From Desulfobacterales bacterium (GTDB taxonomy: Bacteria; Desulfobacterota; Desulfobacteria; Desulfobacterales; JARGFK01), in assembly GCA_029211065.1 (NCBI GenBank), contig JARGFK010000044.1, forward strand, positions 1 to 35,821: DNA of 35,821 nt, in the 5' to 3' direction. The first letter of the stretch is position 1. Each line of letters opens with the position of its first letter. The translations under genes and the position numbers were made by a program. The notes under the pieces were generated by a model. It did not search any database and was not told the DNA's origin. It saw only the letters and a program-made list of their open reading frames with translations. Below, in pieces: positions 17,189 to 33,464 of this stretch.

Positions 17189-17415
17189 GACATGCGGCGA
17201 CCGGGCGGCCGCATTTCGAATCGTGAAAAACTCACGCATAAGCGCGCGTAGGGCCGAACAGGACCCGGACCGACAGAGGGTATTAGGAGGTTCATTGACG
17301 CCCGTCTTTTATGTGGGAATCCGTCGCGCTGTTCGGCCCAACGCGCCCTAATGCGTTCAAACAGTTTCCCGCTCCGAAATGCGGCCGCCCCGGTCGCCGC
17401 TTACGCGGCCATGTC
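17189..17415. repeat. ~227-base imperfect palindromic element (MITE-like or structured RNA)
   Basis: This explains most of the 313-base gap 17102-17414. Outer arms: GACATG + CGGCGACCGGG-CGGCCGCATTTCG at 17189-17218 pairs with 17375-17415, with a 9-base insert and one extra C in the right arm. Inner arms 17234-17261 and 17329-17356 match at 25 of 28 positions (core GGGCCGAACAG / CTGTTCGGCCC). A 67-base centre (17262-17328) is unpaired at this level and contains TTAGGAGGTTCATTG. The right end is at the stop codon of the MmgE/PrpD gene. There is no transposase and no clear target duplication. The small plus-strand frame through it (17148-17351) has no coding character. Confidence 0.75.
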
Positions 17416-18782
17416 TAAATAATTTCACACCCATTCGTAAATGTGCAGATCCTGAAAAGTTCCTGAAAATCCGGCTCGTTTTCCATGTTCAGAATGATCG
17501 CTTCGGTGCGCGCGATTTTTTCATCCGAAATGATTCCCTTGCAATATTTGCGATAGATGGCGACCACCTGATCCATGCTCAAGGGATACTTGGGCCCCCC
17601 GTAGGGTTGCTCCATATAACCGGTAATGGTTTGGTCGTTTTTGAGCTTCAGGTCCAGCCGACCTTCACCGGCATAGTATCTTTTGGGATACTCGGGATGA
17701 TAGACGACTTTGACCTTCTTTCGCGCTTCGGCGATCTGCGGGTCGTGGACGGCGTCTTCGGTATTGGTTTCAAGACCGCATTCCCCGTGTATCATCTGGT
17801 ATGCCAGCATATGGTAGATGCTGAAGCGGCTGTCTTCGGCGTCCTTCGGTTCCGGGCGGTCCAGGATAAACCTCAGTTCGTCAAAGTGCACCGTCACTTC
17901 CTGGATGTCTTCATAGGCCAGCTTGTTGTTGCGCATCAGGTCGGCGATGTTGTCGACGAAGTTATGGTTCTGGAAACAGAAGCCCCATTTTTTTATCCAG
18001 GTGTTGTTGGTGTAAAAGGGCGGCTTCCCCAAGCCTTCGGTCATTTTATCAAACTCGATTTTTTCACTGAAACCACGGCCCAGCATCTCCAGGCTTTTCC
18101 GAATAACCGGTTTGGTGGTGGCCCCCAACTGCGCCATCAGGGCGTTCTGTACGCCGTTGCGGCAGACCGTGGCCGATTCCCAGTAATGCGCGTCCGTTCC
18201 CCAGGTGTGAATATATCCCAGCCCCTGGACCATGGCCAGTCCGAAGGAATTCAGGACTTGCTCTTCAGTCAGGCCAAAGGCCCGGGCGCAGCTGGCAGTG
18301 GCGCCGTATATTCCGATGAAGGGCAAGTTGGCGATGCCCAGGGGCTCCGTCACAACTCCGGCCCACATGGCGATTCGGTTCTGCATTTCCTGGCCGACGT
18401 AAAGGGCCACGATTATTTCCCGGGTGGAAAGTTTAAGTTTGTCCGCCACTGCCAGCAGGGCCGGCCAGGTTGTGACGTCGCTGATGCCGCCCCCGGGAAA
18501 CATATCGTCTTCCATTTCGGAGGCATGTCCGAAGAACCCGTTCAGCAAAGCCGCCTGGGCGACATCGGTCTTGAAGCCGCAGCCGTAAACACCACATTCC
18601 GGCTTTCCGAGGTTGTCCTTAAAATAGGGTATGAATTTCTGGGAGGGGGGGACTGAGGAACCCAGGAGCATCCCCATCACCTGCTTTAAAGTCAGCTTTT
18701 TGATATGTTCGACAACACTCTCGTCAATATCTTCAAAATGGGTGTTCTTAACGAACTTTGCAAATGTTTCGGCGATTTCCAT
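17415..18782 (-). CDS. MmgE/PrpD-family protein (2-methylcitrate dehydratase-like), copy 1
   Basis: A 455-residue protein of the MmgE/PrpD fold, which includes 2-methylcitrate dehydratase, cis-aconitate decarboxylase and iminodisuccinate epimerase. Family features: an all-helical N-terminal half, the GFFGHASEMEDD motif near residue 82 (family HAxxxDD acid-base region), YGATASCARAFGLTEEQ near 170, and the C-terminal lid with YPKRYYAGEGRLDLKLKNDQT. An AGGAG site precedes the ATG at 18782. It is the last gene of the minus-strand block, 68 bases after the M29/NicX-like gene, and its stop abuts the palindromic element. It is a close paralog of the partial gene at 34682-35821. A dehydratase, decarboxylase or epimerase acting on a branched hydroxy-polycarboxylate is the likely role. 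Confidence 0.88.
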   Translation of the reverse strand: MEIAETFAKFVKNTHFEDIDESVVEHIKKLTLKQVMGMLLGSSVPPSQKFIPYFKDNLGKPECGVYGCGFKTDVAQAALLNGFFGHASEMEDDMFPGGGISDVTTWPALLAVADKLKLSTREIIVALYVGQEMQNRIAMWAGVVTEPLGIANLPFIGIYGATASCARAFGLTEEQVLNSFGLAMVQGLGYIHTWGTDAHYWESATVCRNGVQNALMAQLGATTKPVIRKSLEMLGRGFSEKIEFDKMTEGLGKPPFYTNNTWIKKWGFCFQNHNFVDNIADLMRNNKLAYEDIQEVTVHFDELRFILDRPEPKDAEDSRFSIYHMLAYQMIHGECGLETNTEDAVHDPQIAEARKKVKVVYHPEYPKRYYAGEGRLDLKLKNDQTITGYMEQPYGGPKYPLSMDQVVAIYRKYCKGIISDEKIARTEAIILNMENEPDFQELFRICTFTNGCEII

Positions 18783-18850: not shown

Positions 18851-19867
18851 TTATAATCTGCAAATACCGTTTTCGAGTACGACTTTTCCGTCAAAATACA
18901 CCGTTGCGTCCTTGTACATCGCATCGATGTGATTGGGGGCCAATACCTTGCCGCCGATGGCAAAGCTGCTGCCGATGCCGGCGTGGCAGTTGCCCAGGCG
19001 GCCGAGATCTTCCAGGTTGGTTGCCGCAAGCCTGGCTTCTGGGTTCAGTCCGATGCCGAATTCGGCATAGTTGTAAGCCTTTTCGTCGTTGAGCACTTCC
19101 AGGATTTGACGGAGTTTGGCGGCGGCCATGCCGCCCTGGATATCCGTGATGCGGCCGTCCTTGACGATGAGGGTCACCGGACCGTACAGGGTGATGCCGA
19201 CGCTCATGATGCTCACGTCGCTGACGATTTTGCCATGGGCGGTTCCTTCCAGCGGCGAGATATTGATCTCGCTGTCCGGAAATGCCGCGAACTGCCCGGG
19301 GAGTTTAAACAAACCGGTTTCATACTGCACCGGACGGTCCTTTACTATTCCCCGGATATCGGTGCCGGCGGGGCTGGTGATTCGTACTTTTTCGGTTTTT
19401 TCCAGTACGGCCCCGAGTTTACGTCCCAGACGGTCGCAGGCCTCGTAGTCGGCGTTGATGGCGCCGACACAGAGGGCATCTTCGGTAATCTCACACATGG
19501 TGCAGCCGCGCTTGCCGGCTTTGATGGCTTCAACCCGCGCGCGGGTATGGGTCTGGGACCAGGTGGAGGGCTGCAGAAATACATCCGCTTCTTTAAAGGC
19601 TGCTACAACCGGCTCGGGCAGTTGCGCGCCGTGGACGCCCACAGGCGGAATCATGATGATGATGGGGGTGGCGCCCACCGCGTAGGCGGCTCCGGCCAGT
19701 GATTCGGCGATCCGCATTTTGTTGGTATCGGTGGATATCAGAACCGTCTCACCCGGTTTTACGCCGCCGCAGTCCATGACCTTCAAGGCGCCGCGCATCA
19801 TCTGGATCGGGCTGGATGGGCCCGGCATATAGTGCCAATATGAAATCGGCCATTCTTTTGTGCTCAT
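18851..19867 (-). CDS. M29 aminopeptidase-T / NicX-like metalloprotein
   Basis: A 338-residue protein of the fold shared by M29 leucyl aminopeptidases and 2,5-dihydroxypyridine 5,6-dioxygenase (NicX). Possible metal ligands: Glu200 (AFPDSEINISP), Glu269 (YAEFGIGLNP), His295 (GNCHAGIG) and the His313-x-Asp315 pair (NHIDAMYKD), the HxD pattern typical of the family. A cysteine pair in GCTMCEI near residue 122 is unusual. AAAGGAG precedes the ATG at 19867. It lies between the Old-Yellow-Enzyme gene and an MmgE/PrpD gene. Aminopeptidase activity fits the neighbourhood poorly; a ring-acting or hydrolytic role on a small acid is plausible but unproven, and oxygen-dependent chemistry would be odd in an anaerobe. 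Confidence 0.8.
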   Translation of the reverse strand: MSTKEWPISYWHYMPGPSSPIQMMRGALKVMDCGGVKPGETVLISTDTNKMRIAESLAGAAYAVGATPIIIMIPPVGVHGAQLPEPVVAAFKEADVFLQPSTWSQTHTRARVEAIKAGKRGCTMCEITEDALCVGAINADYEACDRLGRKLGAVLEKTEKVRITSPAGTDIRGIVKDRPVQYETGLFKLPGQFAAFPDSEINISPLEGTAHGKIVSDVSIMSVGITLYGPVTLIVKDGRITDIQGGMAAAKLRQILEVLNDEKAYNYAEFGIGLNPEARLAATNLEDLGRLGNCHAGIGSSFAIGGKVLAPNHIDAMYKDATVYFDGKVVLENGICRL

Positions 19868-20012: not shown

Positions 20013-21971
20013 TTACAGGGCGCAGCCGGCCTGAAAGCCTTCATGCACGGCGTCCAGGATTCGCCGCGGCGTCACGCAGTCTCCGATTTTGACGCAAGAA
20101 ATTCCGGCTGCCGCGAGTTCTTCCGATAAACTGTCGATGGGTTCGGCGCCCACCGCCAGAACGATCGATTCAATCGGGACCGTGATCGTTTCACCGTCCC
20201 TTTCCAGGACGGCCGCATGCCGGTCGATCCTTTCGATTCGGGTCGCGGTGTAGGCCGCCACTTTATTTTTAGCAAATTTCATATCGTAAAAAGCCTGGGT
20301 GTCGGCGTCTCCGTCCGAGGCGATCCCCGGCAAGATCTCAACCAGAACGATCCGGTGCCCGTGTTCGCTCAGATAATCGGCTGCCTCACAACCCACCAAC
20401 CCGCCGCCCACCACCAGACAGGGAGAAACCGGCGTAGCGGTCCCGGCGATGGCCTCCCAGGCGGTCATACTTGCATGGGTTTGGAGGCCGGGAATATCCA
20501 CTGTGCGCGGGCGTGCGCCCGTGGCGCAGATAACGATATCCGGTCGATACGGCCGGATCAGCTCAACAGATGCTTTTTGGCCGGTTATTATAGCCACATC
20601 GGTTGCCGCCAGCCGTTTGACAAGAAACTGCCTGATATTTTCGATCTCGCTGCGTCCCGGCGCTGAAGCGGCCAGATTCAACTGCCCTCCCAGTTTCCGG
20701 TTCTCTTCCATCAGGGTGACCTTGTGGCCTCTTTGCCAGGCGCTGTAGGCTGCTTCCAGACCCGCCGGACCGCCGCCGACGATCACAACCGCTTTGGGGG
20801 CGGGAGTTTGGGAAGGGGCGGCGTCATCTTCCCGGCCGGTCATGGGGTTGATGGCGCAGCGGATGTCGAGCTGTTGAAAAATCCGTTTGTAGCACCCTTC
20901 GTTGCAGGCGATGCACAGGCGAATGTCCGCTTCTTTTCCATCCATGGCCTTTTGGGGCAGGTAGGGGTCGGCCAGCAGCGGACGCCCCATGGCCACCAGG
21001 TCTGCCCGGCCCTGGGCCAGAATGTCTTCGGCCAGGGAGGGATGATTGATACGCCCTACGGTGATGACCGGGATGTTGAGATTTTCCTTGAATTTTTCCG
21101 CCAGCGGCACCAGGCAGCCAGGCGCCGTCATCATGGGCATGGTCCGCAGGATCTGGTGGGCCTGTTCAAGGGAGCCCCGTTTTTTGCCGCCGACCGAACC
21201 GGCGGAAACGGTAATCCCGTCAATCCCCGCCTGTTGGGCGATCTGAGCAACCCGGATCATCTCATCTATCCTCAGCCCGCCTTCCATGAATTCATCGCCG
21301 CTGATCTTGATGGTCAACGGATACGCTGCGCCCAAGCGTTCCTTGATCCCGGCGATAATTTCCAGCAGGAAGCGGGTTCTGCCCGCCAGGTCTCCGCCAT
21401 AGGCGTCGCTCCGCCGGTTGGAAAGCGGCGAGAGAAAGGCCGGGATCAGGTATCCGTGGGCGCAATGCAGATCAATCCCGTCAAAGCCCGCCTCCTTTGC
21501 CCAAACAGCCGTCTGGACATGGGCCCGGACCAGTTCTTTAATTTCAGGGACGGTCAGGGCGTGGGGAATTTCTCCACCCGGATAGGCGGAGACCCCGGAG
21601 GGGGCCACCGGCTGCAGTCCGGTGATCTTGGCGGAGGTGCGCGCACCGGCATGATGGAGCTGGATGAATATTTTAGCGCCGTTGCCCAGGGCATGTACCG
21701 CTTGGGTCATTTTCTCCAGCGCACGGGCGTGTTCGGTAGAACAGAGACCGAGCTGCCGAAGATAGCCTTTTCCCTCGGGAGTAAAGTATGTTCCTTCCAC
21801 CATGATCAGGCCCACGCCGCCCTTGGCACGCTCCAGGTAATGCCTGATGAGCTTGTCGGTAGCTCGCCCGTCTTCGGTGGCGTAATTCATGGTCATGGGG
21901 GACATGACCAGGCGGTTTTTCAGCGTGATGCTGCCGAGGTTAAACGGTTGAAATACGTGTGGGTAGTTCAC
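20013..21971 (-). CDS. Old-Yellow-Enzyme / 2,4-dienoyl-CoA reductase (FadH)-type Fe-S flavoenzyme
   Basis: A 652-residue three-cofactor oxidoreductase: an FMN TIM barrel (1-~345), a 4Fe-4S site with Cys353, Cys356, Cys360 and Cys372 (CIACNEGC...RCAINP), then an FAD domain (VVIVGGGPAGLEAA at 395-408) and an NAD(P) domain (LVVGGGLVGCEAADYL near 527). The active-site block HGYLIPAFLSPLSNRRSDAYGG (172-193) is standard. Family members reduce activated C=C bonds in dienoyl-CoAs, enoates or other enones. The start is GTG at 21971, preferred because AGGAGG lies 6 bases upstream and MNYPHVFQPF is the family start. It follows the AOR module by 156 bases on the same strand. Substrate unknown; no beta-oxidation genes lie nearby, so a free enoate is as likely as a CoA ester. 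Confidence 0.93.
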   Translation of the reverse strand: MNYPHVFQPFNLGSITLKNRLVMSPMTMNYATEDGRATDKLIRHYLERAKGGVGLIMVEGTYFTPEGKGYLRQLGLCSTEHARALEKMTQAVHALGNGAKIFIQLHHAGARTSAKITGLQPVAPSGVSAYPGGEIPHALTVPEIKELVRAHVQTAVWAKEAGFDGIDLHCAHGYLIPAFLSPLSNRRSDAYGGDLAGRTRFLLEIIAGIKERLGAAYPLTIKISGDEFMEGGLRIDEMIRVAQIAQQAGIDGITVSAGSVGGKKRGSLEQAHQILRTMPMMTAPGCLVPLAEKFKENLNIPVITVGRINHPSLAEDILAQGRADLVAMGRPLLADPYLPQKAMDGKEADIRLCIACNEGCYKRIFQQLDIRCAINPMTGREDDAAPSQTPAPKAVVIVGGGPAGLEAAYSAWQRGHKVTLMEENRKLGGQLNLAASAPGRSEIENIRQFLVKRLAATDVAIITGQKASVELIRPYRPDIVICATGARPRTVDIPGLQTHASMTAWEAIAGTATPVSPCLVVGGGLVGCEAADYLSEHGHRIVLVEILPGIASDGDADTQAFYDMKFAKNKVAAYTATRIERIDRHAAVLERDGETITVPIESIVLAVGAEPIDSLSEELAAAGISCVKIGDCVTPRRILDAVHEGFQAGCAL

Positions 21972-22127: not shown

Positions 22128-23378
22128 TTAAAAGATATATCCTCGGCGATAGCCTAAATTCGGCGGTACGCTGTCTTGCAGGGAAAAAGTGTCATCCCCC
22201 AGCGGCCCGGCAATTTTTTTCTTTGACTTGAGGGCATTTAAAAGCACCCCGGCCCCGGTTACGTCCCCCGCCAGAATGAAACCGATCAGGGCTCCGGCGC
22301 GGGTCACGAGTTTTCGATAAAGATGCGGTCTTTCCTGAACTGTAATCTCAACATCGGGTCCCGGGTCCGTCAACGGATGGCCGGCCGCCATCACCCGCAG
22401 ACTGAAAAGATCAAGGGCGTTGACGGGGAAATTTTGCAGGTATCTGCGATTTGCACCGGCCATATTGGCGCCGGCCACCGCACCCTGTCGGGTGGCTGCC
22501 GGCCAGGTGGCATTGTTAAAGGGTTCGCCGGTGATGGAATCCGTGGTGATGGTTACATCTCCGGCAGCGTAGATACCGGCCATATTGGTCTGCATGCGGT
22601 CGTTGACGACGATGCCGCGCTGCAACCGGATGCCGCTCTCCCGGAGGAATTCTACATTGGGCGCTACCCCCACTGCCTGAATGACCCGCTCACAGGTGAA
22701 TGACCGGTCGTCCTTCAGGCGAATGCCTTTGACCCGGCCCTTGTGGTGCAGGATTTCGCTGGCCTCAACGCAGGTTTCCACATTGATTCCGTGATGGCGC
22801 AGCGTCTCCTCAACCCGTCGGGAAGTCGCTTCGTCAAAAATCCGGGCCGCCAGGCGGGGTTCCTTTTCCAGAAGGGTGACCCCAACGCCTTTTTCAGACA
22901 GATGACAGGCGAGCTTAAGCCCGATAAAACCCGCTCCGATAATCACCACCTGTTCGACGCCGGTTTCATCTTTTAGAAAGGCCTGGGCGTCGTAGAGATG
23001 ACGGAAAAAGCCGACGCCCCGGGAATCGCCGCCGGGGATGGGCAGGGCCGTTGCCGAAGTCCCGCTGGCAATCAGGAGCCGGTCATATTGGAGCGATTCC
23101 TTGCTGTCCAGGAAAATCCGGTTGGCGGTGGGGTCCAGGGAAACAGCTTCGACGCCGGTCTTAAGGGTGATGCAATTTTTTTCAGCCCAGTCGTCATCTC
23201 TGAAGTAGAGTCGCCGGGGGTCGTATTTTCCGGTGAGCCAGTATGTCAGCATGACCGGTGAACCGGCCGGCGCTGAATCCTTTGATACCATGATCACTGG
23301 TTCGTCCGGCAAACGGCTGCGAATCGCTTCAGCACTGCAGACTCCCGCTGGGCCACTGCCGATAATGACACATGTCAT
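22128..23378 (-). CDS. FAD-dependent NAD(P) oxidoreductase (AorC-like electron-transfer subunit)
   Basis: A 416-residue pyridine-nucleotide-disulfide-type flavoprotein without the redox disulfide. The FAD loop VIIGSGPAGVCSAEA starts at residue 4; the NAD(P) loop VVIIGAGFIGLKLACHL is near 144-160; the second FAD motif GIYAAGDV is near 275. The ATG at 23378 overlaps the stop of the CODH-like gene (ATGA), so the genes are coupled. In the aldehyde oxidoreductase AorABC of Aromatoleum, AorC is an FAD/NAD subunit that lets tungsten AOR use NAD; this gene holds that place as last gene of the AOR module. The AorC link is by role and position, not by alignment. Confidence 0.85.
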   Translation of the reverse strand: MTCVIIGSGPAGVCSAEAIRSRLPDEPVIMVSKDSAPAGSPVMLTYWLTGKYDPRRLYFRDDDWAEKNCITLKTGVEAVSLDPTANRIFLDSKESLQYDRLLIASGTSATALPIPGGDSRGVGFFRHLYDAQAFLKDETGVEQVVIIGAGFIGLKLACHLSEKGVGVTLLEKEPRLAARIFDEATSRRVEETLRHHGINVETCVEASEILHHKGRVKGIRLKDDRSFTCERVIQAVGVAPNVEFLRESGIRLQRGIVVNDRMQTNMAGIYAAGDVTITTDSITGEPFNNATWPAATRQGAVAGANMAGANRRYLQNFPVNALDLFSLRVMAAGHPLTDPGPDVEITVQERPHLYRKLVTRAGALIGFILAGDVTGAGVLLNALKSKKKIAGPLGDDTFSLQDSVPPNLGYRRGYIF

Positions 23379-24481
23379 GGCATTTTCCTGAAATAGTTAT
23401 GGGCGACGGAAATTAAATCACCGGCCTCCGGGGCTAAATAAACGGCGCTGCGGTCCCCCTCTGGCTCTCTGCTGAAAAAGCGGCTGACCGGCTCGCTGCC
23501 GTAAAGGGGCAGTCCCGGCCGGGAAAAGACCGAACAGCCGCAGGCCAGGATACCCACCACCAGCGCTGACGAAGGGGTCAGGGCGAAGACCAGCGGTGCG
23601 GTATGGGTCAGGGGGCGGGAGTAGCGGCGGTAAAATTGCCGGCTGATGTCAAAGAATCCCGGGGGCCGCGACATTTCCACCAGGGCGCCCTGCCATTGTT
23701 TGCGAAACGTTCTAATTTCCTGCTCAAGATGATCATCGCCCCCTTGCCCCGGTGTTTTCAGTAATATTACGACAGGGGACGGCTGCGTCGCATCAAGGGT
23801 TTCAGCAACTTCCGGGTCGGATTTTCCGGCTCCCCGGGAAGATCCCTTCTCCCGGAGGATTTCAAGGTCAAGAATCAGCTCCTCGCATATCAGAAAAACC
23901 AGGGAAACTTTCAGACATGTCCGCAACATGTCTTCCATGGCCGCGTCCTCTTTTTGAACCGGTTGAAAGGCGCTGAGTGCGGTCAGTGTCAGGGAGGTTC
24001 TCGGGAGAATTTCGCCGGTGTAAAACCGGGGAAACATTTGGGCCGGATATAAACGCGACCAGAAGGGTGTTAAATGACCCGCCGAAAGATCCAGGGACAA
24101 CAAGGCCTTGACTTCATGTTTCAGCAGATCGGCGCAACCGGTTTTCCTGATAGCGTCCGGGTTCAGGCCGTATTTGCCGGAGATATATTTTGTGACCCCC
24201 GGGTTTTCCATCCCCACGACGGGTTGTCCGATTGAGGAGGCCCCGCCTTGATGGACGATTTGCGCCAGGTCTGCCAGTCGCGCGGCAGTCTCGGCCGCAA
24301 TTATCCGCAGCAGATTAGCAGCTACCAGCCTGTCGGCGGAAGCCCCGCATTTGCCTTTTTCAATGGTTCGGTCGAAGGGACTGATGCGGCAGGGGCCCTC
24401 CAGGCAGGCCGAACAGCATAAGCCGCTTTGGCCGTAGCCGCAGGGTGGAAATTCCCGGTTTGACGAAAAGTTGTTTTTCAC
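23375..24481 (-). CDS. CODH (CooS) N-terminal-like Fe-S protein lacking the catalytic domain
   Basis: A 368-residue protein whose first ~70 residues copy the Fe-S head of Ni carbon monoxide dehydrogenase: Cys14, Cys22, Cys23, Cys26, Cys31 and Cys45, spacing 8-1-3-5-14, identical to the CooS D-cluster (first two) and B-cluster (last four) ligands, in CGYGQSGLCCSACLEGPCR. It continues CGASADRLVAANLLRIIAAETAA, as in CooS. The remaining ~300 residues do not show the C-cluster His/Cys ligands, and it is about 270 residues short of CooS, so CO oxidation is not expected. A GTG start at 24481 overlaps the previous stop. It follows a CooF-like ferredoxin and an AOR gene. It probably wires electrons, possibly as a dimer, since D-clusters bridge CooS subunits. 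Some databases may name it a CODH beta-subunit family protein. Confidence 0.8.
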   Translation of the reverse strand: MKNNFSSNREFPPCGYGQSGLCCSACLEGPCRISPFDRTIEKGKCGASADRLVAANLLRIIAAETAARLADLAQIVHQGGASSIGQPVVGMENPGVTKYISGKYGLNPDAIRKTGCADLLKHEVKALLSLDLSAGHLTPFWSRLYPAQMFPRFYTGEILPRTSLTLTALSAFQPVQKEDAAMEDMLRTCLKVSLVFLICEELILDLEILREKGSSRGAGKSDPEVAETLDATQPSPVVILLKTPGQGGDDHLEQEIRTFRKQWQGALVEMSRPPGFFDISRQFYRRYSRPLTHTAPLVFALTPSSALVVGILACGCSVFSRPGLPLYGSEPVSRFFSREPEGDRSAVYLAPEAGDLISVAHNYFRKMP

Positions 24482-24975
24482 TTCGCCCCCATTAATTTTT
24501 TGACAAAATGCCTACGCTTTTGGGCGGCAAATCGCTCCCCTTCGTCATAGTCAAGGGCGCGGCTCTGACAGGCCCGTACGCAGGCCGGCACGTCTTCATC
24601 CCGGCAGAGATCGCATTTTTCCGGCCGGTGTTCCCCCTGATCGAGTCCGATCCCGTCGATGGGACATGCCAGCACGCAGGAACCGCAGCCCACACAGGCC
24701 TCCCGATCCTGGACGACAGCCCTGCTCTTTTGATCCAGATGCAAGCCGCCGGTAAAACAGGACTCGGCACAGGGCGCAACCTGACACTGCTGGCACTTCC
24801 AGATCCAAGGGGTCCCGCCTGAAAAACTCACTTTCAGGCTCCGGCCCGGTTTTTGGCCTTTTTCGATCCGGCTGACGTCCGTGACGCCCGCATGCTTCAT
24901 CTGGCAGGCCAGGACGCAGGACAGGCACAGTAGACACCTTTCAGGATGAAAGAAAATTTGCTTATTGGATTTCAT
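24478..24975 (-). CDS. Four-cluster ferredoxin, CooF/HycB-like
   Basis: A 165-residue polyferredoxin with 16 cysteines in four CxxCxxC-type sets: Cys14/17/20/24, 61/64/69/73, 94/97/100/104 and 121/124/132/136, binding four 4Fe-4S clusters as in CooF, HycB and DMSO-reductase-type electron subunits. The ATG at 24975 lies 14 bases inside the AOR gene's end and has no strong ribosome site, implying coupling; its stop overlaps the next gene by 4 bases. CooF is the partner of CooS in CO dehydrogenase, so finding this next to a CooS-head protein suggests the two came together as a module. It differs from the other ferredoxin at 26857-27366 in loop lengths. Confidence 0.9.
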   Translation of the reverse strand: MKSNKQIFFHPERCLLCLSCVLACQMKHAGVTDVSRIEKGQKPGRSLKVSFSGGTPWIWKCQQCQVAPCAESCFTGGLHLDQKSRAVVQDREACVGCGSCVLACPIDGIGLDQGEHRPEKCDLCRDEDVPACVRACQSRALDYDEGERFAAQKRRHFVKKLMGAK

Positions 24976-26860
24976 CTGACGCCAGGCCGAGCTCTTTTAA
25001 TTTTTCCGGGGTTGGAACACCGCTTTCAGGGGACCATCCACGCGCCTCGTAATAATCGTTCAAGAGCCGGTCGTAGTGCTCACGGTTCAGGACGGCGCCT
25101 TTGGCAGGACCTGTCGGCAGGGGTTCCCTGAAAAAACGTTCCGGCGGATAATCCGCCGCCCTGCCGAAGCCCTGCCGCAGGTTGAAGATTTTCTCAACGT
25201 TGTAAACCCTTTCACCGCAGCGGTACATCTCCCGGCTGGTCATGGGGATCCCGGTGGCGGCCTGATAGGCCTCGGCAACCATGTCCAGCCCTCTTTTGAC
25301 AAGCATTGAAAAGTCGCGGGAGCGGTACCAGGCGAATTTGCAGATGCCCATAAGGTCTGACAGGGTGACCCAATCCTCGCTCCAGGCGACCATTTTGCCC
25401 TTGCCCTCCAGGGAGTTGATATCGCTGACGGCGGCGGTTCCAAAATAGGCCTCGGCCTCTTCGGGCTTGATGAACTCGTCGATGTAGGGATTCCCCCGGA
25501 GATGGCAGGCGCCCCGGGTGGCCACGCAATAGGTCAAGGCCCGGGTTTCCTGCTTGCGGGGATCGGCCGCATCCACTTCCAGCCCCTTTACGTGGATGGC
25601 GTAGTATTCGGCATTCAACTTTTCGCCCATCACTTTGGTCCCTTCGGCCAGGAGGTCGCCAAAGCCCTGTCGGGACGCAATTTTGTCGATGAAATACAGC
25701 AGCGCTTCCCCGTTTCCGAACGTCAGCTCCTGGCCGTCCGTCTGATCTCGCTTGAGCAGACCTCTTTCGAACAGTTCCATGGCCATGGCAATGGCCGAAC
25801 CGGCGGATTGTTCGTCCATGCCGTATTCGTCGCAGAGATAATGCGCCCGCAGAATCGTTTCGGGGTCGGTGACATTCGGTTTTGCACCCAGGGCATGGAT
25901 CGATTCGTACTCCGGGCCCTTGGTATAAAAAGGGGAATCCCCGGCGGTGATGGCGGAATAGCGCCGGCACCGGATGAAGCAGGCCATACAACCGAGGGGC
26001 TTGACCAGAAACTTTTTACGAAAGACTTCCCCGCTGATTTTTTCGCCTCCCTCCACGATACCGGACTGGAAGTTTTTGGCGCCCCAGATGCCCAGGGTCT
26101 GGCGATGTTCGGTCAAAAAGGGCGTACCCAGTCGCCGCAGACTTTCGGTCCAGGCTTCGCCGGCAATCGACACGAGGTAGTCGTCGATCACCTTTTTAAA
26201 ACGCGGCGGATCGGCAATCTTCACATCGCGGGTCCCGCGCACGGCAATCGCCTTGAGACGCTTGGATCCCAGCACGGCGCCGATGCCGCAGCGGCCGCCG
26301 ACGCTTTCCTTGTCCGTGACCACGCAGGCGTAGCGCACCATGTTTTCACCGGCGGGCCCGATCACCAGGACGTGCGTGTCTTCGTCATTGGTTTCAGCCA
26401 CGATCTTCTGGTGGCTTTCATGAACCTTGCAGCCCCAGAGGTGCTGCGCCGGCCGCAGCTCGGCCTGTCCGTCCTTAATAAAAAGGTAAACGGGTTCTTT
26501 GGAAGCGCCCCTGACGACGATGGCGTCAAAACCGGCGTACTTCAGCTCCGGCGCGAAGTAGCCGCCGGAGTTGCTGTCCCCCAGAGCGCCCGTCATGGGA
26601 GACTTGGTGGCCGTGACCAGCCGGCTGGCCGACGGCATGGGGAGACCGTTAAGCGCCCCGGAAGCGATGACCACGACGTTGCGGGGGGAGTAGGGGTCGA
26701 CATCCGCCGGGACTTCATCCAGCAGGATGCGGGAGCTGAATCCCCGGCCGCCGATATATTTTTCGGCAAACTCCCGAGGCAGGGGTCTGTTGTCTATGGT
26801 TCCGTCCGTCAGGTCTACGTATAAAATCCGGCCGGCATAACCGCCTTGAAATCTGTTCAT
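24962..26860 (-). CDS. aor: Tungsten aldehyde:ferredoxin oxidoreductase
   Basis: A 632-residue AOR-family enzyme that interconverts aldehydes and carboxylic acids at a tungsten (or molybdenum) bis-pyranopterin site. The 4Fe-4S ligands are Cys291, Cys294, Cys298 (LGCMACFIRC) and Cys507 (LMGICKF), very close to the Pyrococcus AOR positions. Glu319 (GPEYES) and His453 (RGACHLRG), the expected acid-base residues, are present. N-terminal GRILYVDLTDG and KYIGGRGF motifs open domain 1. The ATG at 26860 overlaps the ferredoxin stop (ATGA). Together with the ferredoxin, the MoaD-like protein and the FAD protein it matches the AorABC-type NAD-linked complex. Substrate unknown; AOR enzymes of this group detoxify or use aldehydes from acid metabolism. 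Confidence 0.95.
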   Translation of the reverse strand: MNRFQGGYAGRILYVDLTDGTIDNRPLPREFAEKYIGGRGFSSRILLDEVPADVDPYSPRNVVVIASGALNGLPMPSASRLVTATKSPMTGALGDSNSGGYFAPELKYAGFDAIVVRGASKEPVYLFIKDGQAELRPAQHLWGCKVHESHQKIVAETNDEDTHVLVIGPAGENMVRYACVVTDKESVGGRCGIGAVLGSKRLKAIAVRGTRDVKIADPPRFKKVIDDYLVSIAGEAWTESLRRLGTPFLTEHRQTLGIWGAKNFQSGIVEGGEKISGEVFRKKFLVKPLGCMACFIRCRRYSAITAGDSPFYTKGPEYESIHALGAKPNVTDPETILRAHYLCDEYGMDEQSAGSAIAMAMELFERGLLKRDQTDGQELTFGNGEALLYFIDKIASRQGFGDLLAEGTKVMGEKLNAEYYAIHVKGLEVDAADPRKQETRALTYCVATRGACHLRGNPYIDEFIKPEEAEAYFGTAAVSDINSLEGKGKMVAWSEDWVTLSDLMGICKFAWYRSRDFSMLVKRGLDMVAEAYQAATGIPMTSREMYRCGERVYNVEKIFNLRQGFGRAADYPPERFFREPLPTGPAKGAVLNREHYDRLLNDYYEARGWSPESGVPTPEKLKELGLASDEIQ

Positions 26861-27366
26861 TTTAAGCCTGTCTCCGTGTTAATCGTTTGCGCTTGCAGCA
26901 GCCGGGCAAAACCCTTCATCCGGTGTTTGGAAAATTGCGACGAACCGCTCAGCTTTAAAACCTCGGCGGGACAATATTTGACGCACTGGGGCTCCCCGTT
27001 GCAAAGGTCGCACTTAAGGGCGGTCCCTTCCCCGGGGTCCAGAATCACGGCCCCGACGGGGCAGGCATTCACGCACATGCCGCATCCGATGCAGACGTCC
27101 GGGTTGACGATGACCATGCTGTCCGGCTGCGGGCGGTGCATCGCGCCGGTGGGGCAGATATTCACGCAGGGGGCGTCTTCACAGTTCAGGCAGGTGACCG
27201 GTATGTCCACGCCTTTGCCCAGCGCCACCACCCGGATCCGGCTGCGGTAGGGATTGCCGACCCCATGATGATGAAATGTACAAATCAATTCGCACATCCG
27301 GCAGCGGCTGCAGATTTGATCCATATTTTCGGAATCCTCAACATACCAGATTCTTTCTTTGGCCAT
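26857..27366 (-). CDS. Four-cluster ferredoxin, AOR electron-transfer subunit (AorA-like)
   Basis: A 169-residue ferredoxin with 16 cysteines in four 4Fe-4S sets: Cys19/22/25/29, 59/62/67/71, 92/95/98/102 and 119/122/128/132. It carries electrons from AOR to an acceptor; in Aromatoleum AOR such subunits (AorA) polymerise into a filament-like wire. The start at 27366 (MAKERIWYVED) is chosen: GGAGG lies 5 bases upstream, inside the stop region of the MoaD gene; a longer frame to 27405 would overlap that gene more. Its stop overlaps the AOR start by 4 bases. Neighbours on both sides are AOR-complex genes. Confidence 0.92.
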   Translation of the reverse strand: MAKERIWYVEDSENMDQICSRCRMCELICTFHHHGVGNPYRSRIRVVALGKGVDIPVTCLNCEDAPCVNICPTGAMHRPQPDSMVIVNPDVCIGCGMCVNACPVGAVILDPGEGTALKCDLCNGEPQCVKYCPAEVLKLSGSSQFSKHRMKGFARLLQAQTINTETGLK

Positions 27367-27367
27367 T

Positions 27368-27676
27368 TTATCCTCCAGAAACATAGTACAGCAGGCTGAC
27401 GACATCCTGATCTTCCAGCGGGACCGGCTTTTGATTCAGCATGATTCCGGTATAGACTCGGTCATTTACCTTGACCATCAGCCCCGCCGAAATAAAACCA
27501 AGGTCCTTTTCGAATATCAGGGAGTCAATTTTTCCACCGGACAACTCCGACAGGCGGCGCAGCAGATCTTTCAGGGTCTCTTCGCCCTTTCCCAGCAGCA
27601 AGGTCTTTTGGGGGCGATGAAAGATGGCCCGGAAGACCGGGCTGAAAACGATTTCAACGGTTTTTAGCGTGTTCAT
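27368..27676 (-). CDS. MoaD/ThiS-like ubiquitin-fold protein
   Basis: A 102-residue beta-grasp protein ending in Gly101-Gly102 (YYVSGG), the C-terminal tail that MoaD-type proteins carry as a thiocarboxylate to sulfurate molybdopterin. Blocks near ETLKDLLRRLSEL and DQDVVSLLYYVSGG match the family. It overlaps the ferredoxin ribosome site (only one base separates stop and next start), so it belongs to the AOR operon, as AorD does in Aromatoleum. It is longer than ordinary MoaD (~80 residues), typical of AOR-linked versions. A TAAGG site lies 4 bases before the ATG. Confidence 0.88.
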   Translation of the reverse strand: MNTLKTVEIVFSPVFRAIFHRPQKTLLLGKGEETLKDLLRRLSELSGGKIDSLIFEKDLGFISAGLMVKVNDRVYTGIMLNQKPVPLEDQDVVSLLYYVSGG

Positions 27677-27700: not shown

Positions 27701-29353
27701 TTAGATCCAGACCGCGCCGGAATCGGCGCCCGACACCATTTTCCTATATGCGCCCAGAAATCCGGGGGCAGGGTGATCGGGTCGTTTTGGGCCGGCTTTT
27801 TGACGTTGCAGCAATTCTTTGTCTGATATGTGCAAGTGAATCCGATTTTCCGGAATATTTATTTCGATGAGATCGCCGTCCTGAACAAACGCCAGGGGCC
27901 CTCCGTCCCAGGCTTCCGGACAAACGTGCCCCACGCAGGGGCCCCGGGTGGCGCCTGAAAAACGGCCGTCCGTGACCATGGCCACCGAGGTATGAAGCCC
28001 CATGCCCACCAGCATGGCGGCAGGGATCGACAATTCCCGCATCCCGGGCCCGCCCTTGGGGCCTTCGTAGCGGACAACCAGCACCGAACCGGGCTTGACT
28101 TCCTTTTCCATTAAAAATTTTCGGACATCTTCTTCCGAGTCAAACACGGATGCCGGCCCCTTATGCGTCAGCATGCGGGGTTCCACCCCGCTTTTTTTAA
28201 CAACGGCCCCCCCGGGGGCGAGGTTGCCGTACAAAATCGAAAAGCAGCCGTCGGGGGACAGCGGATCCGTCCCCGGCCGTATCACCCGTCCGTCCGGTTC
28301 CATCGCGTGTTTCAGAGCGTCTCCCAACCGGCCCCCCATGGCCAGGGGGGCGTCAAGGTCAAGATGGTCCTTGATGCTTTTCATTAGGCTGGGAACCCCG
28401 CCGGCATCGTGATAATCGCTGATGTTGAAATCGGCCGAGGGTTTAAACTTTGCGATGAGGGGCACGGAAGCCTGCAGCCGGTCAAAGGCTTTCAGGTCCA
28501 GATCAAGCTTCATCAGATGGGTAAGGGCCATCAGGTGCAGGGCAGCGTTGGTGGAGCCGCCGGAAGCCGATATGCATTTAATGCCGTTTTCGAGGCTGGC
28601 CCGATTAAAGAATTCTGAAAAGGGCCTTTTTTCATGCACAAGGGCAACGATGCGTTCGCCCACATCGCGGGCCTGACGGGCCTTGGCGCCGTCAAAGGCC
28701 AGCATGGTGGTGGCGCCGAAAGGCGCCAGACCGGTGCTTTCCAGAAAACAGCCCATGGTATTGGCCGTTCCCATCATCGAACAGGTCCCGGCCGAGGCGC
28801 AGAAGCGCTCCTGCCAGTTTAGAAACGTTTCCTGATCGATCTGGTCGTTGCGGCGCTTGCCGATGGCTTCTTTTAAATCCGGCGTGGTCACGGTACGGTC
28901 CTTCAAGCGGCAGGGGAGCATGGCGCCGGCCGTTATAAACAGCGTCGGGATATTGAGGCGGACGGCTGCCATCAGCATGCCGGGCAGTATTTTGTCGCAG
29001 GAGCCGAGCATGACCATTCCTTCAAAACCATGGGCGCTGACCATCGCCTCAATGGATGCTGCGATCAAATCCCGCTGGGGCAGAATGAAATGCATGCCCG
29101 GCCCCTGGGCCATACCGTCACAGGGGGCGGGGACATTGAACTCCCCGGGCGAACCGCCGGCCGCCCAGATGCCCTCCTTGACCCGACCGGCCAATTCCTT
29201 CAAGGGCTGGTGGCCGGGGTTGACGTCCGTCCATGAATTGACCACCGCGATTTGCGGTTTGTCGAGGTCCGTCCGGCGGTACCCGGATGAATGCATCAGA
29301 CCGCGATAATAGGCCTCGGTGATATCTTCCGGATTTCCCCGGTGTGCGTTCAT
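27701..29353 (-). CDS. IlvD/Edd-family dehydratase
   Basis: A 550-residue Fe-S dehydratase of the IlvD/Edd family, which removes water from 2,3-dihydroxyacids or aldonic acids to give 2-keto-3-deoxy products. Cluster ligands Cys78 (PAPCDG), Cys119 (GSCDKILPG) and Cys191 ([13 protein letters not shown]) are present, with Lys121 at the place of the metal-bound carbamylated lysine. The C-terminal [21 protein letters not shown] motif is complete. AAAGGAG lies upstream of the ATG, which overlaps the stop of the preceding reductase (ATGA). No other branched-chain amino-acid genes are here, so a catabolic sugar-acid or hydroxyacid role is more likely than isoleucine/valine synthesis. It runs 24 bases before the MoaD gene, probably co-transcribed with the AOR module. 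Confidence 0.92.
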
Positions 29354-30258
29354 GATGACGCTCCTTTCTTTTTTCGAAACTCAATATCCAGCATGCGTTC
29401 AAAAACCTTTATCAGCGCCCCTTTGTTTTCTGCGCCCAGGCCTTGTCGCAAGGCCATCTGAAAGGTTGCGGTGGTGGCCTGCACCAGCGGCAGGGGAATC
29501 TTCTGGTGTGCCGAGATCTCGGCGGCGCTGATCATGTCTTTGTATGCGTGTTTCAACGGATAGCCCTGGTCAAATCGGTTTTCAAGGGCCAACGGCAAGA
29601 AAAATTCCGCAGCAAAACTGCGGCCGGTTCCCGTCGTTACCACTTCGGTGACCTTTTCCGGATCCAGCCCGAGCTTGGCTGCCATGGGCAGGACCTCGGC
29701 GACACCCGCGCAGCAAATATTAAAGAGCAGCTGGTTGATCAGCTTGGTCAACTGGCCGCTGCCGACGTTTCCCATGTAGACAATTTTGTTTCCAATGGCG
29801 TCCAGCAGCGGTCGAAGCGTTTCCAGAAGGGCGGGGTCTCCCCCGAACATGATCGTCAGCTTTCCTTCTTTGGCTCTGGCCTCCATCCCGGAAATCGGAG
29901 CGTCGGCAAAAACAATTCCTTTTTCTTTCAGCTTGCGGCCTATTTCCAGTGTCGGCATATAGCTGATGGTGCTCAGATCGACAATCGTCAGGCCCGTTTT
30001 GGCGCTGTGAACGATGCCGTTTTCTCCGAATATGACCGATTCAACCACCTGGGTGTCCGGCAGGCTTAGAAAAATCAGGTCGACCTTAGCGGCTAATTCA
30101 GCCGGATGCTGAGCAGCTTTGGCGCCCTGGCCGGTGAGGAATTTAACCGCTTCAGGGTTGATATCGCAAACCGTGACATCATAACCGGCCTTTACAATGT
30201 TGAGGGACATCCATTTTCCCATTTCTCCCAGTCCGATAAATCCGATTTTCTTGTCCAT
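29350..30258 (-). CDS. 3-hydroxyisobutyrate dehydrogenase-family oxidoreductase (copy 2)
   Basis: A 302-residue beta-hydroxyacid dehydrogenase. GLGEMG (9-14) binds NAD(P); the substrate loop [22 protein letters not shown] (119-140, split in family between DAPISG and the GG) is standard; Lys172 and Asn175 are the catalytic pair. The start at 30258 ([11 protein letters not shown]) is preferred to 30285 because CTGGAG lies 6 bases upstream. It overlaps the IlvD-type gene by 4 bases, so dehydratase and reductase act in one pathway, as in glucarate/galactarate-like routes ending at tartronate semialdehyde, but no aldolase is present. It is only distantly similar to the reductase at 13785-14678. 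Confidence 0.92.
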
Positions 30259-30393
30259 TTTTTTCTCCAGTTTGTATTTCTGCATAGAAAATCTGGCTTT
30301 CAGAGTCAGGTCAGAGTTAACCGACTTTACTATGGATTTTTGTTTGATATTTGGAATTTGACATTTGTAATTTCAACAAAGCAAATCCTCTCT

Positions 30394-30416
30394 GGGGATA
30401 ACCAAAGCCTATCCCC
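30394..30416 (-). terminator. Hairpin after the DUF6282-type gene
   Basis: GGGGATA (30394-30400) and TATCCCC (30410-30416) flank a 9-base loop, 15 bases past the stop of the DUF6282-type gene. No T-tract follows on the minus strand. AT-rich words (TTTGATATTTGGAATTTG, ~30335-30375) fill the rest of this 173-base gap. It might attenuate transcription into the dehydratase/AOR unit. Confidence 0.4.
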
Positions 30417-30431
30417 CTATGTCAGGATTCT

Positions 30432-31319
30432 TTACTCCAGTCCCAATAACTTTGCGGGATTGACCGCAGTCATGGTTCGAACATCTTTTTCAGAAATGCC
30501 CCGTTTGAGCATTTCATTCATGTAAATTCCCATCTGCTGTGCTGCCGGCGGATTCAGCCACTGGCCCGCATCCGTGGACATGATGTTGTATTTTGCTCCC
30601 ATGGTTTTGACGACGTTGAAAAGGTCCTGGATTTGTAAGGGATGCGATACCTGACGGGTCACGTCGTTCCAGGTATGTTCCAGGTAGGTGGCTCCCAGGT
30701 CGAGGATCTCTTTCATATCTTCGATGCTGTAATGAACGAAAGTTGCGGCCGGATGGGTGACCACGATCCGTTTGACGCCGCGGCCGGCAGCCTCTTTTAC
30801 GGCAACCTTGGCTTCCTCCATGGTAACATGCCCGGTTCCCAGAATGGCATCATACTCGGCGATCAAATCAAAGATGGGGAAAAGGTCTTCACGCAGACTG
30901 CCGTCTTTGTTGAGCAGGTAGATTCCCTGTACATCGCTGCCGATTTCGGTGGCCAGGTTGGCCACATGGCTCTTGTTCTGGACAAAGTACTGGGCGTGCA
31001 CTGTCGGCAGCCAGACCTGCTTGGCGCCCAGTTTCAGCGCCATTTTGACCGCGTGTTTGTTGATGCCCCCATTGGTGAGGTTCAGGGCAATGCCGCCGAA
31101 CACCTTAAAGTCGGCGACCTCCGAAGCAATTTGGGCCCGGCTGGCGGTTTCAAAATAATGGTTTTTCACCAGTATGGCGCGCATTCCGTTTTCCTTGGCT
31201 GAAAGCGCCAGTTCAACGTCGTTTAACAGGCGCGGATACACATCCGGCGCCGAGTGGATGTGAAAGTCGATGGCCCCTTCCAGCAAAGTTGTCACATTGT
31301 TTTCAAATCTGAATTTCAT
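30432..31319 (-). CDS. DUF6282-type amidohydrolase-like protein
   Basis: A 295-residue TIM-barrel metal-hydrolase-like protein I place in the DUF6282 group. Likely ligands: His20 and His22 (AIDFHIHSAPD), Lys52 with His54 (VKNHYF), His164 (GTGHVTMEE), His189 (VTHPAATFVHY) and Asp250 (STDAGQW), the order seen in amidohydrolases; the terminal NPAKLLGLE is the usual closing motif. AAGGAGG precedes the ATG at 31319. It follows the TRAP permease by 57 bases. A hydrolase or lactonase acting on the imported compound is a reasonable guess. It is not similar to the longer amidohydrolase at 3693-5015 beyond metal motifs. Confidence 0.8.
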   Translation of the reverse strand: MKFRFENNVTTLLEGAIDFHIHSAPDVYPRLLNDVELALSAKENGMRAILVKNHYFETASRAQIASEVADFKVFGGIALNLTNGGINKHAVKMALKLGAKQVWLPTVHAQYFVQNKSHVANLATEIGSDVQGIYLLNKDGSLREDLFPIFDLIAEYDAILGTGHVTMEEAKVAVKEAAGRGVKRIVVTHPAATFVHYSIEDMKEILDLGATYLEHTWNDVTRQVSHPLQIQDLFNVVKTMGAKYNIMSTDAGQWLNPPAAQQMGIYMNEMLKRGISEKDVRTMTAVNPAKLLGLE

Positions 31320-31376
31320 TAAAGCTGTTCCTCCTTAGGTTAAATTCCGAATGGATTCGGATAAAATAAATATGGT

Positions 31377-33227
31377 TTAAAGGGTCTTCGGCCGCTTCCG
31401 GTTCATAACGGTAGCCACCGCCAACAGCCCGAGTCCGATGAGGTCCGAATATATGTTCGGAACAAACAGGCAAAAGGCGCCGATTCCCAGAAGAATACGA
31501 TCCATCACATTGGCCAGCCGCAGCCAGTACCCCTGCATCATGCCGGCATAGGCAATGATCCCGATGGTTGCGCTCAGAATCGTCTCGAGCACGTTCGGCC
31601 AACTGCCGTCGAGGAGCAAAGGCGTATAGGCAAACAGAAACGGCATGATAAAAAGCGGTGAAGCCAGCCGCACGGCTGTAAATCCGGCACGGTTGGGGTC
31701 GCACTTGGCGATGCCGGATGCCGCAAAAGCCACCAGGGCCACGGGCGGCGTGACCCCCCCGGTTTCACAGAACCAGAAAACGATTAAGTGGGCCGACAGC
31801 AAGGGGATGCCGTAGTCCATCAGAGAGGGAACGGCCAGAACCGAAAGCAGAATATAGGTGGCGGTGATGGTCACCCCCATGCCGATGATATAACCGCCGA
31901 TGGCAACCAGTATCAGCGTCAATGGCAGAATCCCCTGGGAAAGCGCCAGCACCACCGAGGAGAATTTGATGCCGACCCCGGTCATGGTGACCGTACCGAT
32001 GATGATGCCGATCACGCCGGCGGTGGATCCCACCATCAGAAAAGTTTTGGAGCCGTCGATGAGGGCATCGAGAACTTTGGGGGGCGTCATGCGCGTTTCT
32101 TTGCGGATAAAGCTTAAGAGATAGGTGGACAGAATGGCGTAAAACGCGGCAATATTGGCGGAATAACCCATCATGAGAGCGCCCAGTATGACAAAAATGG
32201 GCAGCAGCAGATATCCCTTGTACAAAAGGGCGCGTTTTAAATTGGGAATATTTTCCGGTGAAAGCCCTTCCAGGCCCCGCCGGGCGGCGATAAAATGCAC
32301 CATCATCCCGACGCCCAGGAAATAAAGAAAAGAAGGAATGATGGACACCTTGACGATATCAAAATAAGGGGTATCCGTAAAAGCCGCGATGAGAAAAGCT
32401 GACGCTCCCATGACCGGGGGCATGAACTGACCGCCGGTGGATGCCGCCGCTTCAACGGCAGCAGCCACATGGGGACGATACCCGGCCTTCTTCATCATGG
32501 GGATGGTATAGGACCCGGTGGCCACCGCATTGGCAGCGGAAGAACCGGTGACCGAACCGATGAATCCGCTGGCGATTACCGCCACTTTTGCCGGTCCGCC
32601 GCGGGTTCCGCCGGCCAATGCCAGTGAGATTTCATTGATGGCCGGCCCGGCCCCGGCGGCCTGCAGGAAGGTGGCGAAAATAACAAAGGGGAAGATAAAG
32701 GTGGCGTAGGTGTTGGTGACAATGCCGTAAATACCCCCCATGCTGCAGGATAAAAATTCAATGATGCGCGGAAGCGTATAACCATAATGGCCCAGAATTC
32801 CCGGTACATAAGGGCCGAAATAGGCATACAGCAGGAATAGCGCCGCCAGGGTGGTGAGGACATATCCCACCACCCGCCGGGCGACTTCAAAGGAGAGGAT
32901 AAGCAGGATCGCGCCCATGATGATGTCCGTCCGGTTCGGATTTCCGATGCGTTTGACGCCGAATTCCGGGTAGGTGATGATCCAGTAGCTGATTACTGTA
33001 ATGGTCGCGGCGCACAAAATCCAATCATAAAAAGGAATTTTATATTCCTTTGATCCGCGTCTGAAAGGAAACAGGAGAAAGATGAGCACATAGGTCAGCA
33101 GAAGGTATCCGCCGCGATGCAGCTCAATACTGACCAAACCAAAACCGCTGGTATAGATAAAATATAGGGTAAACAGAGCGGCGAGCGTGTTCACAAATAT
33201 CTTGGAAATACCGTCTAACTGTCTCAT
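31377..33227 (-). CDS. TRAP transporter fused permease (DctQM-type, TAXI system)
   Basis: A 616-residue polytopic protein with small (4-helix) and large (12-helix) TRAP domains fused. The large domain shows GSVTGSSAANAVATGSYTIPMMKKAGY near residue 220, GGQFMPPVMGASAF near 250 and the CETGGVTPPVALVAFAASGIA block near 500, which are typical. It takes up the ligand of the TAXI binding protein using a sodium or proton gradient. The gene lies 237 bases after the binding-protein gene with a strong hairpin between them, and 57 bases before the DUF6282-type gene. The AGGAAGG ribosome site is a little far from the ATG. Confidence 0.95.
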   Translation of the reverse strand: MRQLDGISKIFVNTLAALFTLYFIYTSGFGLVSIELHRGGYLLLTYVLIFLLFPFRRGSKEYKIPFYDWILCAATITVISYWIITYPEFGVKRIGNPNRTDIIMGAILLILSFEVARRVVGYVLTTLAALFLLYAYFGPYVPGILGHYGYTLPRIIEFLSCSMGGIYGIVTNTYATFIFPFVIFATFLQAAGAGPAINEISLALAGGTRGGPAKVAVIASGFIGSVTGSSAANAVATGSYTIPMMKKAGYRPHVAAAVEAAASTGGQFMPPVMGASAFLIAAFTDTPYFDIVKVSIIPSFLYFLGVGMMVHFIAARRGLEGLSPENIPNLKRALLYKGYLLLPIFVILGALMMGYSANIAAFYAILSTYLLSFIRKETRMTPPKVLDALIDGSKTFLMVGSTAGVIGIIIGTVTMTGVGIKFSSVVLALSQGILPLTLILVAIGGYIIGMGVTITATYILLSVLAVPSLMDYGIPLLSAHLIVFWFCETGGVTPPVALVAFAASGIAKCDPNRAGFTAVRLASPLFIMPFLFAYTPLLLDGSWPNVLETILSATIGIIAYAGMMQGYWLRLANVMDRILLGIGAFCLFVPNIYSDLIGLGLLAVATVMNRKRPKTL

Positions 33228-33249
33228 CTATGGCGTACCTTCCTTGGTT

Positions 33250-33385: not shown

Positions 33386-33389
33386 ATCT

Positions 33390-33433: not shown

Positions 33434-33464
33434 ATGGATTTCAGCAAATCCGGAAACGGGCAGA

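Follow-up and report, generated by a model that had tools for sequence, protein, structure and literature searches.

What is the cysteine head of a carbon monoxide dehydrogenase (CODH) doing in an operon for a tungsten aldehyde oxidoreductase (AOR)? The question is raised by P0001, a 368-residue protein encoded from a GTG start on the reverse strand (23375..24481) of a 35,821-nucleotide stretch of DNA from a Desulfobacterales bacterium (GenBank assembly GCA_029211065.1, contig JARGFK010000044.1, positions 1 to 35,821), which we refer to as the window. An earlier note, made from the sequence alone, had read P0001 as a CODH electron-wiring module in an AOR operon, and this reading is partly supported by the analysis reported here. 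We consider it likely that P0001 is a derivative of CooS-type Ni-CODH that has lost the Ni,Fe C-cluster and serves an AorABC-like, NAD(P)-linked tungsten AOR complex as an electron-transfer subunit without catalytic function; we call it the CooS remnant. Searches of open-licence PubMed Central papers, without their supplements, turned up no description of a CooS remnant in an AOR operon. CODH surveys are blind to such a protein because length or ligand filters remove sequences of this kind: Inoue 2019 excluded proteins of <550 aa and those with D-, B- or C-cluster deletions (PMC6344411), Inoue 2022 excluded proteins of <400 aa or with altered ligands (PMC8776680), and a 2026 survey of marine CODHs excluded C-cluster mutants (PMC13240472).

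Homology of P0001 to CooS

The cysteines of P0001 lie at positions 14, 22, 23, 26, 31, 45, 116, 189, 199, 314 and 316. The spacing of the first six, 8-1-3-5-14, is exactly that of the D- and B-cluster ligands of CooS. By homology to CODH, we assigned Cys14 and Cys22 to the two-cysteine, type II D-cluster and Cys23, Cys26, Cys31 and Cys45 to the four-cysteine B-cluster; their codons span 24347..24442. The exact pattern occurs once among window open reading frames of at least 30 aa and in none of 200,000 shuffles of P0001. This spacing had been pointed out in the earlier note, and it is now backed by homology searches, with matches to NCBIfam TIGR01702 (E 1.3e-15, aa 10-75), to Pfam Prismane (E 4.9e-9, aa 21-110) and, as the best PDB sequence match, to R. 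rubrum CooS 1jqk (E 2.9e-15). Because of these E-values, we take the likeness to be homology rather than chance. The TIGR01702 match scores 56.6 bits, below the curated cut-off of 478. With an E limit of 10, the PDB listing has 38 sequences, 36 of them CODHs.

Similarity to CooS is not confined to the head. The CooS N-terminal region seen with Prismane covers aa 10-110 (24152..24454), and hhalign joins aa 5-170 to a CooS N-terminal profile with E 7.5e-23 and a probability of 99.5%. A CooS-like C-terminal tail, recognized by hhalign and by conservation, covers aa 300-368 (23378..23584). It matches the C-terminus of a profile built from CooS plus two reduced CooS-like proteins described below, d564 and d497 (E 2.2e-6, probability 89%), and that of a CooS-only profile (E 8.1e-5, probability 61%); all of these hhalign E-values are for one pairwise profile comparison. 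The tail residues L312, G315, P322, P325, G328 and S329 are unchanged in the nine family members that reach this region.

The predicted fold agrees with these matches. Of the 368 residues of an AlphaFold2 model built with ten family rows only (pLDDT 74.2, pTM 0.80), 359 aligned with CODH-II (its residues 25-631; 3.9 Å, Z 27.8), so that P0001 has the CODH fold as a predicted model. All of the 50 fold matches listed for this model belong to the CODH family, and the CooS-V chains among its structural matches reach Z 26.5 and 18.8. When 21 CooS rows were added, the model (pLDDT 80.0) aligned best with CODH-IV, over 342 residues with Z 27.1. The best Foldseek E was 1.4e-8. For aa 225-300, the fold search gives ranges only and does not choose between the two CooS Rossmann domains. 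Given the profile matches of head and tail and the end-to-end match of the model to CODH-II, P0001 is therefore a CooS minus about 265 internal residues. Judging from profiles and models, it retains a condensed body consisting of the N-terminal helical region, one alpha/beta region and the CooS C-terminal tail. The description of P0001 as a CODH head "without its catalytic body" was thus overstated: the profile searches and structure prediction that had been suggested as a check confirm descent from CooS and replace the bare head with an internally deleted protein.

Loss of the C-cluster ligands

The C-cluster ligand set, one His and five Cys, is absent from P0001. We looked for these ligands in the C-terminal part, where finding them would have contradicted the earlier note, and there were none; an alignment of the ten family members holds no invariant Cys or His beyond the head, in agreement with the claim that a protein of 368 residues lacks the nickel-site pattern. 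Cys189 is retained in seven of the nine members that reach this position, and cysteines 116, 199, 314 and 316 are likewise not invariant. All ligands are retained in 14 of 14 CooS rows used for comparison, these rows having been preselected by motifs that include one ligand. The acid-base residues have fared no better: in alignments to PDB sequences, the His of the AAH motif is replaced by Arg in P0001, and the region of the Lys is unaligned. Ligands for a hybrid cluster of the type found in the hybrid cluster protein (HCP) or CooS-V are not conserved in the catalytic body of the family either. The C-cluster would have been lost through a combination of internal deletion and substitution, with the B/D region and the condensed alpha/beta region kept.

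A family conserved in AOR operons

An alignment-based scan of genome contigs gave 69 loci, of which nine belong to the family of P0001 (L097-L103, L114 and L157) and 60 fall outside it. Together with the window, the family has ten members, nine of them 291-368 aa long and one, L103, truncated by the contig end; start codons of the relatives were chosen by hand. The nine relatives are 26-39% identical to P0001. The six head cysteines are invariant in all ten members, and no other cysteine is. The dN/dS values of three member pairs were 0.48, 0.30 and 0.29.

The family is sparsely distributed in the order, class and phylum samples, which overlap. Besides the window's own genome, full-length relatives were found in four of the 345 genomes of the phylum sample, and these account for four of the nine family loci; 20 genomes of that sample matched, 15 of them at the N-terminal region only. 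In the class sample (340 genomes), 13 genomes matched including the window, the other 12 at the N-terminal region only, with no full-length relative apart from the window. This absence is not firm, because the cut-off of 1e-16 used for class and phylum would miss the most divergent members (L114, E 1e-15; L157, E 5e-13). When residues 79-368 were searched against 389 genomes of the order, the window itself came back together with one further match (27% over 89 residues, with two stop codons), which we took as chance. Scanning the genome contigs with the single sequence P0001 gave 37 pattern matches and no relative. Several candidate short proteins were discarded: those of G053 (344 aa), G063 (368 aa) and G037 (372 aa) turned out to be CooS sequences interrupted by runs of N, by odd sequence or by a contig end. 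Among the 60 non-family loci, five short frames were inspected (L139, L145, L159, L161 and L163), the others ending at contig ends, and L139 and L145 proved to be CooS cut off in frame.

The gene order WorS-like ferredoxin, AOR, CooF-like ferredoxin, CooS remnant and FAD/NAD(P) oxidoreductase (FNOR) is conserved. The AOR lies upstream of the remnant in nine of nine testable loci (L098 begins at CooF), the FNOR lies downstream in nine of nine (L103 ends inside the remnant gene), and the order holds in all eight loci where both are visible. A second ferredoxin stands beside the remnant in 10/10 loci. An old yellow enzyme (OYE)-type reductase follows the FNOR in each of the eight loci whose contig is long enough (L097 ends in the FNOR), split over three frames in L102, and a MoaD gene is present in seven of nine loci, not being found in L114 and L157. 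The AOR of L103 reads as two overlapping frames. In the ten loci examined (stretches of 4.9 to 35.8 kb), we found no acetyl-CoA synthase (ACS) gene and no second CooS, contrary to what homologs residing mainly beside CODH/ACS genes would have shown.

In the window, these genes lie on the reverse strand with P0001. The P0001 gene overlaps both neighbors by 4 bases, the upstream ferredoxin gene at 24478-24481 and the downstream FAD gene at 23375-23378, and the translational coupling proposed earlier is borne out to that extent. The ferredoxin (24478..24975, 165 aa) has four [4Fe-4S]-type cysteine motifs, as read from its sequence; among solved structures, its best matches are AOR small subunits. 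The FNOR (22128..23378) matches Pfam Pyr_redox_2 and, as its best NCBIfam model, PadH, below the cut-off. Its best solved match is 8c0z_E, AorC, the NAD-binding subunit of AorABC (3.4e-44; next best 4.4e-34), which agrees with the FAD oxidoreductase partner named in the earlier note. The ferredoxin and FNOR trees, built without five hits that were a different gene or incomplete, place the operon proteins each in a clade of their own.

The large subunit of the AOR (WorL/AorB; 24962..26860, 632 aa) matches Pfam AFOR_N and AFOR_C and the structures 1aor, 9mqx_D and 8c0z_A. The small ferredoxin subunit (WorS/AorA-like; 26857..27405) matches the small subunits of WOR5, 9mqx and 8c0z, the best solved matches being 6x6u_B, 6x1o_B, 9mqx_E and 8c0z_C. 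In 389 genomes of the order, a search for close AOR relatives (E up to 1e-150) yielded, apart from the window, a single match of 42%. Of the tungsten-site residues named in a 2026 classification of tungsten oxidoreductases into five classes (Thr243, Glu313, Tyr427 and His448 in PfAOR numbering; PMC13328260), Thr243 and His448 are present in all nine operon AORs, and Glu313 is present in six, with Asp in L099, L100 and L101. An equivalent of Tyr427 is found in none of the nine, which have Ala, Ser or Thr instead, so the operon AORs do not carry the Class III residue set as a whole, and their substrate may differ from ordinary aldehydes. A second AOR adjoins the operon in two relatives (L101 2010-4871; L114 5143-7029) and also lacks Tyr at this position; the loss is therefore not peculiar to the operon AOR clade. 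Across the whole genome G000, matches to the AOR C-terminal family lie at 15 places, corresponding to about 14 genes, and the window AOR is the only one whose contig also has a CooS-like match at E 1e-5.

At the gene level, the WorL, WorS and WorN trio of Class III is present together. The class has only three subunits, and the operon adds two genes, those of the CooF-like ferredoxin and the remnant, which stand between WorL and WorN in all eight loci showing both. The operon would thus represent a new composition for tungsten oxidoreductases, and the terms CODH, CooS, CooF, prismane and carbon monoxide do not occur in the main text of the classification (PMC13328260).

The remaining reverse-strand genes of the window operon region encode a MoaD/ThiS-like protein with a C-terminal GG (27368..27676; Pfam ThiS E 1.5e-4, 22.7 bits against a cut-off of 22.5), the OYE/BaiCD-type flavin reductase (20013..21971; Pfam Oxidored_FMN, NCBIfam OYE/BaiCD models below cut-offs) and an M29-peptidase-like protein (18851..19867) that is often downstream in relatives. 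Around the operon are carboxylate transporter genes (TctA twice, TctC, and TRAP with a TAXI binding protein) together with PrpD, DHAD, HIBADH and DUF6282 genes (298-1806, 6770-7738, 8402-9928, 17415-18782 and 27701-34493). This setting suggests organic-acid catabolism.

Other reduced CooS proteins

The window's genome encodes two further CooS proteins with all ligands (contigs C32 and C78) and two without a C-cluster, for which we coined the names d564 (564 aa; L022 6045-7739, contig C53) and d497 (497 aa; L023 6148-7641, contig C57). Each of the latter adjoins its own ferredoxin and FNOR, and there is no AOR on contigs C53 and C57. Full-length relatives of d564 occur in G211, G062 and G115, with pieces in G074 (56-62% identity), and a full-length relative of d497 occurs in G062. 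Members of the 564-aa group have kept all four B-cysteines along with a type III D motif and have lost the His and most Cys ligands of the C-cluster; one Cys of the Cys-Cys pair 294/295 survives, with uncertain alignment at C526. The 497-aa group has nothing left but the B-cysteines. The dN/dS of one 564-type pair was 0.10. Several pairs of an MTHSLHR protein and a ferredoxin-domain protein lie beside these two operons (L022 9748-10395 and 10408-11169; L023 3298-3945 and 4120-4845); the one MTHSLHR protein scanned had no Pfam or NCBIfam match.

Graded ligand loss is also seen in three loci from other phyla that share this MTHSLHR type of operon, composed of a ferredoxin, an MTHSLHR protein, FNOR and CooF. 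A CooS from Bacillota (L161 1741-3339) lacks Cys295 and the Lys, one from Firmicutes (L159 9647-11353) lacks Cys295, the Lys and the His, and both retain most ligands. In Chloroflexi (L163 3655-4824), a short CooS, close to P0001 in length, consists of a head and a 224-aa C-terminal frame (E 1.7e-6 against a CooS profile) with an in-frame stop between them, and there is no AOR. Together with d564 and d497, this last case indicates that reduction of CooS is not confined to AOR operons. Residence beside AOR genes, which the note had asked about, therefore holds for the family, in nine of nine testable loci, and does not extend to other reduced CooS proteins, which occur in CooF/FNOR operons without AOR. 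In a tree of 107 columns (CooS row L018, whose frame starts far upstream, was dropped), d564 and d497 fall together inside type III D-cluster CooS with the remnant family apart, while a single clade for all C-cluster-less groups was not rejected (p-AU 0.277).

Discussion

P0001 is homologous to CooS, its C-cluster ligands are lost, its six head cysteines are invariant in the family and its gene order is conserved. As the note had proposed, the protein is best read as a repurposed CODH module; conserved in several anaerobic bacteria, it is probably an electron connector rather than an enzyme. Since the AOR, WorS and FNOR match AorABC (8c0z), we propose an AorABC-like complex with two extra subunits, for which we infer cluster assembly, a dimer, an order of transfer and an acceptor as follows. 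Aldehyde oxidation at the tungsten site (in reverse, acid reduction) would feed the WorS-like ferredoxin, which would pass electrons to the B- and D-clusters of the remnant, probably a homodimer sharing its D-cluster as in CODH. From there, they would move through the CooF-like ferredoxin to the FAD of the FNOR and on to NAD(P)+, along a path that would be reversible. The remnant is placed before CooF because the CODH D-cluster hands electrons to CooF (PMC6344411).

Several observations weigh against this scheme. AorABC serves NAD without a subunit of this kind, so NAD coupling by itself does not call for the remnant. The remnant diverges fast (26-39% identity), while the seven operon AORs compared with that of the window have stayed at 65-72% identity. 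Residues 225-318 alone give no significant profile match (best E 0.18), and Foldseek superpositions are poor (TM to query 0.39-0.65 in the rows listed). The AlphaFold models are metal-free monomers in which the cysteine head has low confidence (pLDDT 33-60 over aa 1-40), and they may lean on memorized CODH folds. Among the partners, the CooF-like ferredoxin stands apart on a long branch in its tree, so that its name does not imply descent from CooF. FNORs from d564, d497 and CooS operons match the FNOR with 143-237 bits (leaving aside one partial 44-bit hit) compared with 154.8 for AorC; its kinship with AorC is not exclusive, because some CooS-operon FNORs outscore AorC.

These points bear on other explanations. 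The remnant could be a structural scaffold that docks or dimerizes AOR, CooF and FNOR, with structural or partly filled clusters and direct transfer from WorS to FNOR. AorABC reduces NAD through AorA and AorC, which are in direct contact in the structure (PMC10413684), the window WorS and FNOR resemble that system, and divergence beyond the cysteines is fast; on the other hand, the six B/D cysteines are kept in 10/10 members even as identity elsewhere falls to 26%, and a second ferredoxin always adjoins the remnant, so we regard a scaffold role as unlikely. Alternatively, the two ferredoxins per operon and the OYE-type reductase that follows the FNOR in all eight informative loci may be indicative of a branch point, at which electrons go to NAD(P) via FNOR and to another acceptor, a ferredoxin or the OYE-type flavin reductase. 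Class IV tungsten enzymes do bifurcate (PMC13328260), but Pfam and NCBIfam scans found no bifurcating flavin module of the WorABC, NuoEFG or HdrA type among the window operon genes, and the FNOR resembles a plain pyridine-nucleotide-disulphide-type oxidoreductase, making this explanation improbable.

We give very little credence to a different active site resembling CooS-V or HCP and reducing oxygen, NO or hydroxylamine: Ni-CODH-V is a precedent for re-use of the site (PMC13240472), CooS-V chains are among the structural matches and Cys189 persists in most members, yet no Cys or His is invariant beyond the head. A decayed gene or an assembly artefact might be suspected in an assembly of 269 contigs with an estimated 4.29% contamination, particularly as internal deletion and fast drift resemble decay and the related short CooS of L163 is split by a stop. 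We rejected both, as scarcely credible, on the grounds that other genomes hold relatives of similar length, gene order and cysteines and that dN/dS is below 0.5.

If the electron-connector reading is correct, one of the oldest metalloenzymes has left behind a wiring part for electrons that outlived the nickel catalyst and plugs into a different metal enzyme. The remnant would also be a natural nickel-free B/D-cluster protein, its clusters being predicted, for study of the D-cluster. More tentatively, and with more doubt than confidence, we suggest that nickel-free electron hubs have been made from the CooS scaffold more than once, in the remnant and separately in d564/d497, giving among others a new tungsten-complex class, WorL-WorS-CooF-remnant-FNOR. 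In this view, two catalytic arms would share one NAD(P) outlet through a dimer bridged by the D-cluster.

The remnant combines features of several known systems. With CooS-type Ni-CODH (CODH-II, R. rubrum CooS) it shares the B/D spacing of a type II D-cluster, the N-terminal sequence, the C-terminal tail and the modelled fold, while being about 265 residues shorter and lacking the C-cluster ligand set and the acid-base residues. The grouping of a CooS-like gene with a CooF-like ferredoxin and FNOR recalls CooS-CooF-FNOR operons among the CODH groups (PMC6344411); unlike that CO-oxidizing unit, the remnant is catalytically empty by sequence and the trio is joined to an AOR. MoaD-AOR-ferredoxin-pyridine-disulfide-oxidoreductase neighborhoods have been known since 2006 (PMC1779556), and AorABC of Aromatoleum aromaticum (Class III, 8c0z) has the same large tungsten, small ferredoxin and FAD/NAD subunits, to which the present operon adds a second ferredoxin and the remnant, with an AOR lacking the Tyr427 equivalent. 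CooS-V and HCP belong with the remnant to the CODH/prismane superfamily and likewise perform no nickel catalysis, but they keep a cluster in the catalytic body, for which the remnant has no conserved ligands. Finally, d564 and d497 resemble the remnant as C-cluster-less CooS proteins adjoining a ferredoxin and FNOR, and differ from it in being longer, in having a type III or no D-cluster motif and in lying on contigs without AOR.

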